From NCBI GenBank assembly GCA_020627705.1, contig JAHDGJ010000001.1, positions 410,398 to 474,397 on the forward strand: DNA of 64,000 nucleotides, read 5' to 3'. The DNA comes from Saprospiraceae bacterium. GTDB lineage: Bacteria > Bacteroidota > Bacteroidia > Chitinophagales > Saprospiraceae. Below the pieces are notes generated by a model. That model was not told where the DNA came from and did not search any database. It saw nothing but the letters and a program-made list of their open reading frames with translations. The position numbers and the translations under genes were made by a program. Shown in pieces: positions 38,131-40,843 of the stretch (its first letter is position 1; every line of letters starts with the position of its first letter).

Positions 38131-40125
38131 ATGAAAGTCCACAAGAACTTAAATGAGCTTCCATCGTTTAAAAATGCGGTCCTAACCATCGGATCCTTTG
38201 ATGGAGTACATCGTGGACATCAAGAAATATTTAAACAATTACGCACATTAAGTACCCAGTTTGGAGGAGAAAGTATCGTTGTCAGCTTTCATCCGCACCC
38301 TAGAAGTGTTATATATCCAAAGGCAAATGATCTAAAACTCTTAAATAGTCTTGACGAAAAAATTAGATTACTCTCTAGGTATCAAATTGATCACTTGGTA
38401 TTGGTTCCATTCTCCATAGAATTTTCGCAGCAGCCTGCAAGAGAATACATTGAAAAATTTCTTTTAGGAAAATTCAATCCAAAATGTATTGTTGTCGGTT
38501 ATGACCACCGCTTTGGTTTAAATCGTGAGGGTAATGTTGATTTATTAAAAGAATATTGTCAAGCCACAGATTTGGAAGTAATTCAAATCCAAAAAGAAAC
38601 GCTGGATGAAATCACAATCAGTTCGACCAAGATAAGAGAGGCTATTGCTAAAGGAGACATACTTGAAGCCAATCAACTTTTGGGTCACCCTTACCTCATT
38701 GAAGGACGAGTGATACATGGCAAAAAAGTGGGGCAAACCATCGATTTTCCCACCGCTAACATCAAGCTAAGTGACGATAAAAAACTCATTCCTGCAGAAG
38801 GGGTTTATGCGGTCAATTGTGATCTAAATGGTCTTCATAAAGGCGGCATGATGTACATCGGATCAAAAAAGAAAAAGGATGGCCAACGAAGAGTTTTTAT
38901 GGATATCGAAGTGCATGTATTTGATTTTGAAGGCAACATTTACGACGATTCACTCACCGTAGAAATCATCGAACACGTTCGAGACAATAGAACATTTGAA
39001 TCTTTGGAAGCCCTTCGAGCACAATTAATTCTTGATAAGGAACGCTGCAAAAAAATTCTAAGATACCATGATGGCATAAAGCCCAAACCCAAAGTAAGCA
39101 TTGCTATTCTCAATTATAATGGTCTTGATTACCTCGATCGTTTTTTACCAAGTGTGCAGCAAAGTTTAACGGAGGATTTTGAATGCGTTGTTATAGACAA
39201 TGGCAGTACAGATGACAGCCTCGAATTTTTGGAGGAATGGTATCCTGAAATTCGAGTAATTGCCCTTGACAAGAATTATGGCTTTGCAGAAGGCTACAAT
39301 AAAGGCATAAAAGAAATTGATGCACCCATCATCGGTATTCTAAATTCGGATGTACAACCCGATTCCAAATGGTTAAAATCTTTGCTGGTTAAACTAGAAA
39401 ACGACCAAACCATTGCGTGTATACAACCCAAAATATTATCCTTAGAAGAAAAAGAATATTTCGAATATGCAGGAGCATCAGGAGGATATCTAGACAAACT
39501 CGGATATCCTTTTTGTAGAGGAAGAATTTTTGACACGATTGAGCAAGACAATGAGCAATACGAGTCTGATGAAGAGGTATTTTGGTGCAGTGGTGCTGCA
39601 ATGCTCATAAGAAAAGAAGCATTTGAAAAAAGCGGCGGCTTTGATACAAGCTTTTTTGCTCATCAAGAAGAGATAGACTTGTGTTGGCGATTGAAACGTC
39701 TGGGTTTTAAATGCCTGGTGGCTCCAACAGCTAAAGTCTATCACTTAGGAGGAGGCACATTGGACTACTCAAATCCAAAAAAAACATACCTAAACTTTAG
39801 AAACAATTTGACCATGTTACTTAAAAACCAGGCATCCGGGTCACTTTGGTTCATTTTTGTTGCTCGTCTTTTTCTTGATGGCGTTGCTGGGATTAAATTT
39901 TTATTTGGAGGGCAGCTTAAAAATACATGGGCAATTATAAAAGCACATTTTTATGTGTATGGAAATATTCTCAAAATTTTAAACTCCAGGAAGGCATTCA
40001 AAAAAATAATTTCTGAGCACAAGGCGCAAGACAATTCGAAAACGGGAAGGTTGAACAAAGCATTACTCTTTCAATACTATTTAAGGGGAAATAAAAAATT
40101 TAGTGACTTAGATTTTGAGAAGTAG
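38131..40125 (+). CDS. ribF: RibF (riboflavin kinase/FAD synthetase) fused to a family-2 glycosyltransferase
   Basis: 664 residues. Residues 1-310 are a complete RibF: the nucleotidyl-transfer motif GSFDGVHRGH (21-30), VVGYDHRFG and ISSTKIRE for FAD synthetase, then the riboflavin-kinase loop GQTIDFPTAN (201-210) and the C-terminal NRTFESLEALRAQL helix. At ~320 a GT2 domain begins: KVSIAILNYNG, VVIDNGSTDDSLEFL, YGFAEGYNKGI, a metal-site NSDVQPD, and HQEEIDLCWRLKRLG, resembling rhamnosyl-transferase-like GT2 proteins with a hydrophobic C-terminal patch. Both halves look intact. No ATG, GTG or TTG exists in frame between residues 310 and 325, so the second half has no start of its own nearby. 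RluA overlaps its end by 11 bp. Fusion of FAD synthesis with a glycosyltransferase is not one I know. Confidence 0.88.
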   Translation: MKVHKNLNELPSFKNAVLTIGSFDGVHRGHQEIFKQLRTLSTQFGGESIVVSFHPHPRSVIYPKANDLKLLNSLDEKIRLLSRYQIDHLVLVPFSIEFSQQPAREYIEKFLLGKFNPKCIVVGYDHRFGLNREGNVDLLKEYCQATDLEVIQIQKETLDEITISSTKIREAIAKGDILEANQLLGHPYLIEGRVIHGKKVGQTIDFPTANIKLSDDKKLIPAEGVYAVNCDLNGLHKGGMMYIGSKKKKDGQRRVFMDIEVHVFDFEGNIYDDSLTVEIIEHVRDNRTFESLEALRAQLILDKERCKKILRYHDGIKPKPKVSIAILNYNGLDYLDRFLPSVQQSLTEDFECVVIDNGSTDDSLEFLEEWYPEIRVIALDKNYGFAEGYNKGIKEIDAPIIGILNSDVQPDSKWLKSLLVKLENDQTIACIQPKILSLEEKEYFEYAGASGGYLDKLGYPFCRGRIFDTIEQDNEQYESDEEVFWCSGAAMLIRKEAFEKSGGFDTSFFAHQEEIDLCWRLKRLGFKCLVAPTAKVYHLGGGTLDYSNPKKTYLNFRNNLTMLLKNQASGSLWFIFVARLFLDGVAGIKFLFGGQLKNTWAIIKAHFYVYGNILKILNSRKAFKKIISEHKAQDNSKTGRLNKALLFQYYLRGNKKFSDLDFEK

Positions 40126-40843
40126 AAAGACAGAAATCGTTTTTGAAGACAACAACTTCATCATTGTCAATAAGCCACCAGGCTTATTGGTCATTCCAGA
40201 TCGCTTCGATCATGATGCTGCCAATCTTTATCACCAATTACAATCAAAGCATCCAGAGCTACTTTTGGTCCACCGCATCGATAAATTTACAAGTGGTTTG
40301 GTTTGTTTTGCTAAAAATGAAAAAGCTCAAAAACACTTCACTGAGCTGTTGATGAGCAATAAAGTAGAAAAAATTTATCATGCGCTTTGTCATAATGTTC
40401 CTAGGACCGAAAGCGGTACAATAGATATTTATTTAAAAGAAGACCCTTCTAAAAAAGGAAAAATTATTGCTGCCAAAAAAGGTAAAAAAGCAATTAGCCA
40501 CTTTAAGGTTTTGAAGAGTTGGGAAAGATTTTCTTTACTCGAAATAAAGATAGAAACGGGGAGAACACATCAAATAAGAGTACATCTCAAAAACATAAAT
40601 TGTCCCATTATAGCGGATGAAAAATATGGCATATCGTCTGCGTTTTATTTAAGTCAATTGAAACGAAAAAAATACAAGCACAAAAAAAATGTTGAAGAAC
40701 GCCCACTAATATATCGACAAGCCTTGCATGCCTTTCGTTTAAAATTTAAAGACTTGAGTGGGAAATTTATAGAAGTGACTAGCGATGTGCCAAAAGATAT
40801 GAGGGCTTTAAAAAATCAACTGGATAAGTTTTACGAAATCTGA
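40115..40843 (+). CDS. RluA-family RNA pseudouridine synthase
   Basis: 242 residues, lacking the S4 domain. VFEDNNFIIVNKPPGLLVIP opens the catalytic domain, the catalytic Asp lies in HRIDKFTSGLVCFAK, and ETGRTHQIRVHLKNINCPIIADEKYG is the RluA motif III. Members isomerise uridine in 23S rRNA or tRNA; the target is not readable here. The start is TTG at 40115 (an in-frame stop lies at 40109 and no ATG is available), overlapping the upstream fusion gene's stop by 11 bp. The 3' end overlaps the convergent ABC-F gene by 13 bp. Confidence 0.88.
   Translation: MRSRKTEIVFEDNNFIIVNKPPGLLVIPDRFDHDAANLYHQLQSKHPELLLVHRIDKFTSGLVCFAKNEKAQKHFTELLMSNKVEKIYHALCHNVPRTESGTIDIYLKEDPSKKGKIIAAKKGKKAISHFKVLKSWERFSLLEIKIETGRTHQIRVHLKNINCPIIADEKYGISSAFYLSQLKRKKYKHKKNVEERPLIYRQALHAFRLKFKDLSGKFIEVTSDVPKDMRALKNQLDKFYEI

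Follow-up and report, generated by a model that had tools for sequence, protein, structure and literature searches.

The joining of RibF, the riboflavin kinase/FAD synthetase, to a glycosyltransferase (GT2) in one open reading frame is strongly supported as a real, old, family-level trait of the Saprospiraceae. We consider it likely that the product is one polypeptide of ~75 kDa with two independent enzymes, the sole riboflavin kinase/FAD synthetase and a GT-A-fold GT2 that would act on an envelope glycolipid or LPS; that two adjacent, co-oriented operon genes were joined within this family; and that the effect of the fusion is obligate co-expression, with no shared reaction. In some relatives whose seam between the two halves carries nine to eleven adenines (A9-A11), slippage in transcription (or translation) would then give both RibF alone and RibF-GT2. 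These A-runs are a more surprising part than the fusion itself, and the A-run hotspot at the seam is new.

The window, meaning the whole stretch of DNA analyzed, comprises 64,000 nt from Saprospiraceae bacterium GCA_020627705.1 (contig JAHDGJ010000001.1, positions 410,398-474,397, forward strand). In its sequence, positions 38131-40125 (+) form a single uninterrupted open reading frame of 664 codons, with RibF and GT2 separated by a linker of ~6 residues. Neither this linker nor the whole span from residue 310 up to the GT2 domain contains an ATG, GTG or TTG codon. The preliminary description, which reported a 664-residue frame holding a full RibF and a full GT2 with no in-frame start between the halves, was exact in both respects as judged from the sequence, Pfam and TIGR00083. 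The features of the locus are as follows.

38131-39066, + strand: RibF module, residues 1-312 (Pfam, NCBIfam, conserved motifs)
38170-38631, + strand: FAD synthetase part of RibF, residues 14-167 (Pfam)
38680-39060, + strand: riboflavin kinase part of RibF, residues 184-310 (Pfam)
39049-39055, + strand: A7 run, codons K307 K308 I309, within the C-terminal helix of RibF (sequence)
39067-39084, + strand: linker HDGIKP, residues 313-318 (sequence)
39085-40122, + strand: GT2 module, residues 319-664 (PF00535, invariant residues, AlphaFold, Foldseek)
40123-40125, + strand: TAG that ends the fused frame (sequence)
40115-40843, + strand: RluA-family pseudouridine synthase gene, overlapping the fused gene at its 3' end (PF00849)

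Pfam assigned FAD_syn to residues 14-167 (1e-46), Flavokinase to 184-310 (4e-36) and Glycos_transf_2 to 323-500 (4e-25), the last scoring 89 bits against the PF00535 cut-off of 23.3, and the NCBIfam model TIGR00083 (ribF) matched residues 17-310 with 249.9 bits against a cut-off of 184.35. Both modules look active from their sequences. Across the 39 relatives compared, the RibF motifs GSFDGVHRGH, ISSTKIR and PTAN along with E260 are invariant or nearly so, and the GT2 residues D356, D407, E513, E514 and D516 are invariant. The RibF half is probably active as a riboflavin kinase/FMN adenylyltransferase because it is the only copy in the genome: PF01687 has one match there, the fused gene, which is thus the sole riboflavin kinase, and a spare RibF copy elsewhere is ruled out. 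The GT2 module consists of a GT-A domain (323-500), the catalytic DNGSTD, NSD and HQEEID motifs and a helical, hydrophobic C-terminal part (569-629), and its next-best match in the same genome has only 32% identity. AlphaFold modeled the fusion as two modules, each well folded (pLDDT 86), and the pTM of 0.55 gives no confident placement of one relative to the other. In Foldseek the first half matched FAD synthetases, with TM scores of 0.83-0.88 by target length; the matches of the second half were GT-A enzymes, GalNAc-T2 and GlfT2 among them. Of the 20 fused loci compared (L060-L079), 16 have an RluA-type gene (cluster c1) following the fusion, and the one at 40115-40843 is probably in the same operon as the fused gene.

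Our search of relatives found the same unbroken fusion in most genera of Saprospiraceae, with uninterrupted full-length homologs of 41-54% identity in many genera besides that of the window. In the family sample, 363 of 398 genomes had a match, the large majority as one full-length alignment, a table that slightly overcounts fusions since an in-frame stop is read through in L174, L175, L199 and L200. Reading base by base the 175 distinct loci that entered the tree gave 125 with one open frame, 48 with split neighbors and 2 with the genes apart, so that the RibF-GT2 fusion is the commonest state in the family. Fused isolates include the named records Neolewinella persica DSM 23188 and Portibacter marinus, which place the family as Saprospiraceae. 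Every fused match in the order sample (78 of 299) and in the phylum sample (5 of 396) belonged to Saprospiraceae, and neither sample contained a fusion outside it. Literature searches found no description of a RibF-GT2 fusion. We also observed that five genomes (G001, G016, G179, G233 and G262), 90-98% complete, have no PF01687 match; these are probably assembly gaps, or could be real losses accompanied by flavin uptake.

The polarity of this change was read from a tree of RibF and GT2 columns that excluded the linker, with other families of the order as the outgroup (FastTree, with many open forks). On the deepest Saprospiraceae branches ribF and GT2 are either separate neighbors or lie apart. 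Nearly all fusions fall in a single large clade (123 fused, 29 split), with the splits nested inside it. Parsimony requires 16 changes between fused and split, at least 11 of them forced by well-supported branches. Many split forms have usual operon layouts, namely ATGA, GTGA or TTGA overlaps, an in-frame stop a few bases ahead of an ATG, or short gaps. Given the separate neighbors at the base of the family, the fusion arose, on this phylogenetic reading, inside the Saprospiraceae, when two operon genes lying side by side in the same orientation were joined. The preliminary description had left the choice between a true fusion and the loss of a stop codon, and had proposed looking for the same fusion in relatives; its presence across the Saprospiraceae, isolates included, settles the choice for a true fusion, and stop-codon loss survives as an ancient joining of operon neighbors, and not as an error of assembly or an accident of this one genome. 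Separately, in L278 (a linker of 71 residues), L264 and L154 the stretch that links or spaces ribF and GT2 is long and built of short repeats, as if repeat expansion separates the genes or maintains the frame.

Of 165 distinct seams, 20 contain a run of at least nine adenines and 13 a run of at least ten; among 3904 control windows of the same size in the same genes, the corresponding counts are 2 and 0. About a tenth of the Saprospiraceae have such long A-runs at the seam. The runs might be mere lysine-rich linkers or relics of an A-rich GT2 start region, with no programmed slippage, an account we find plausible though somewhat improbable. When synonymous codons were redrawn with the protein held fixed (1000 draws, 122 fused seams), lysine-rich linkers alone predicted 6.75 seams with A≥9, but 16 were observed, a number never reached in the 1000 draws; linker composition therefore accounts for only part of the runs. 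Within the RibF body the same redraw showed the usual avoidance of A≥9 (1 observed, 4.2 expected). Exact A10 is likewise rare in most of these genomes, G141 having 11 in 7.5 Mb over both strands, one of them at the seam. Across the 398 genomes, a pattern of A9, 18-48 bases and ILNYNG matched in 31 genomes from 21 genera, 30 times at the ribF-GT2 junction, while the reversed pattern had no match. The sole match off the junction was in G074, a family member in which GT2 stands apart and A9 lies upstream of its own ATG. The starts of 43 standalone GT2 genes from other Bacteroidota have no A≥9 nearby, so simple inheritance of a start region does not explain the seam run, and we reject it as an ancestral feature of GT2 starts, G074 being the exception in the family. 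An in-frame ATG does follow the run in L011, L017, L312 and L343, and A-runs mutate easily, so some at the seam may be relics. Against the absence of slippage, however, stand the frame relations described below, in which an out-of-frame GT2 lacks a start in three genera and slipped-frame stops are conserved in one genus. We also note a T9 run (CATCCTATTTTTTTTTACC) at the RibF end of the fused locus L240; the seam counts are of A-runs.

Frames were examined at the 36 distinct loci with A≥9 (30 fused, 6 split). At the six split loci, all A10 or A11, the RibF frame stops 1-10 codons past the run and one extra A enters the GT2 frame. The GT2 of L143, L147 and L151, from three genera, is out of frame and has no ATG, GTG or TTG ahead of its domain, while its frame is intact and retains the DN.STD and NSD motifs (the strict FAHxEEID string is unmatched in L151). 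To judge from these frames, this GT2 is reachable only by slipping on the A-run. A TTG is the only candidate start in the linkers of L149 and L153, and a GTG might serve in L320. Metagenome assemblies can miscount a homopolymer by one, and the out-of-frame loci could be undercounts that are really plain fusions: all six lie in the +1A frame and therefore one more A would make each an in-frame fusion, as an undercount would give. We think this unlikely, as the arrangement is shared by L143, L149 and L153, which are three species of a single genus, and recurs in L147 and L151 from two further genera, and the stop right behind the run differs, being TAA in L149 and TAG in L153.

At the fused loci with A≥9 a stop is soon reached in the slipped frames. 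The five run-bearing species of genus g114 all have one directly after the run in the one-A-shorter frame (TAA, TAG, TAG, TGA or TAG), and four of them build that stop with the rare isoleucine codon ATA and without ATG. A slipped-frame stop close behind the run is also conserved in three A9-TGA loci, a pattern that is only suggestive overall. The distance to the slipped-frame stop at fused A-run loci differs from that at other positions of the same genes (KS p 0.008 for +1A, 0.0002 for -1A) and from that in run-free fusions (Mann-Whitney p 0.06 for +1A, 0.013 for -1A), tests that are only suggestive since the loci are related and the p-values thus optimistic. Taken with the enrichment, the seam A-runs of these relatives fit a putative programmed slippage of the dnaX/mxiE type. 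Slippage could work in two directions, an in-frame fusion slipping off to RibF and an out-of-frame pair slipping on to the fusion. We see an even chance that in part of the Saprospiraceae the seam is a programmed slippage switch that controls, in both directions, how much free RibF is made relative to RibF-GT2, and that A-run slippage was a stepping stone from neighboring genes to permanent fusion. It is also possible that GT2 is made by internal initiation at a non-standard codon, or that the linker of the fusion is cut by proteolysis.

The same GT2, of ~340 residues, is a standalone protein across the Bacteroidota (L080-L139), with 43-50% identity to the fused form. A PF03279 lipid A acyltransferase gene lies directly upstream of the standalone GT2 in 14 of 60 such loci outside the family, spanning Sphingobacterium, Bacteroidales and one Chitinophagales genome; the genome of the window has two PF03279 genes, both away from the fused locus. 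Judging by these neighborhoods, the GT2 substrate is probably an envelope glycolipid or LPS. The retention of a single polypeptide over more than 100 genera could reflect a physical or functional advantage beyond mere co-expression. A rival reading is membrane tethering, in which the hydrophobic helices of the GT2 tail anchor FAD synthesis and localization is under selection. The C-terminal part is indeed hydrophobic and helical in the AlphaFold model, but split relatives have a free RibF, and we regard tethering as a poor prospect. We find very improbable a functional coupling in which GT2 adds sugars to flavins, or in which the making of FMN/FAD supplies or controls the sugar-transfer step. 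Retention over the whole family would be in its favor, but GT2 has long existed in the Bacteroidota as a gene of its own with envelope-type neighbors, the fused clade contains repeated splits, and the modeled interface between the modules is not confident. The flavin-glycoside, or flavin-to-sugar link, suggested at the outset is therefore not upheld.

Most fused genomes, that of the window included, have no run of A≥9. The A7 of the window is short of the ~9 or more adenines expected at a decision point and lies upstream of the usual place. Loss of one A from it would bring TAA (39059-39061) into frame, with no conservation seen. Since the run lies upstream of the usual place and is not shared with the nearest relative, L005, a simple in-frame fusion is the best reading of the window sequence. 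Early suspicion of this run was apt in that seam A-runs are enriched across the family, but the run itself is shorter and placed differently, and is no read error. A sequencing or assembly error, chance, or a stop-codon loss private to this genome, which the closeness of A7 to the seam might suggest, can be dismissed because the same unbroken, full-length fusion occurs in many genera and in isolate genomes.

In a large environmental family, a housekeeping enzyme that is the sole route of FMN/FAD synthesis permanently shares one reading frame with an unrelated glycosyltransferase. If slippage is true, the same two genes offer a natural series of neighbors, frame-shifted pairs and in-frame fusions in which the fusion of adjacent genes, and the rise and decay of slippage sites, would be directly testable. 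The ribF-GT2 loci may also get annotated as frameshifted or as two genes.

Compared with known RibF proteins (TIGR00083; 2x0k from Corynebacterium ammoniagenes, 1mrz from Thermotoga maritima), the RibF module of the window is complete with all motifs, whereas none of the solved structures has a glycosyltransferase behind it. The GT2 module has the same full domain (PF00535) and catalytic motifs as the standalone, pan-Bacteroidota GT2 but, unlike it, lacks its own start codon and forms the C-terminal half of a RibF fusion. Many bacterial genomes avoid runs of nine or more; slippage on the A9 of Thermus thermophilus dnaX gives a shorter product, and the longer product of mxiE requires slippage (PMC1088944). 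Relatives with long seam runs resemble dnaX in their coding A9-A11 with a close stop in the slipped frames, and mxiE where GT2 would be reachable only after slippage. They differ in that the seam joins two unrelated enzymes, that relatives of a single gene show both layouts, and that seam slippage is putative, with no such run in the window copy. Gene pairs that are frameshift-linked in some genomes and fused in others, such as those of the magnesium chelatase cluster, have been described in a text that mentions neither riboflavin nor glycosyltransferase (PMC3711429), and ribF-GT2 follows the same pattern of shifted and fused forms.
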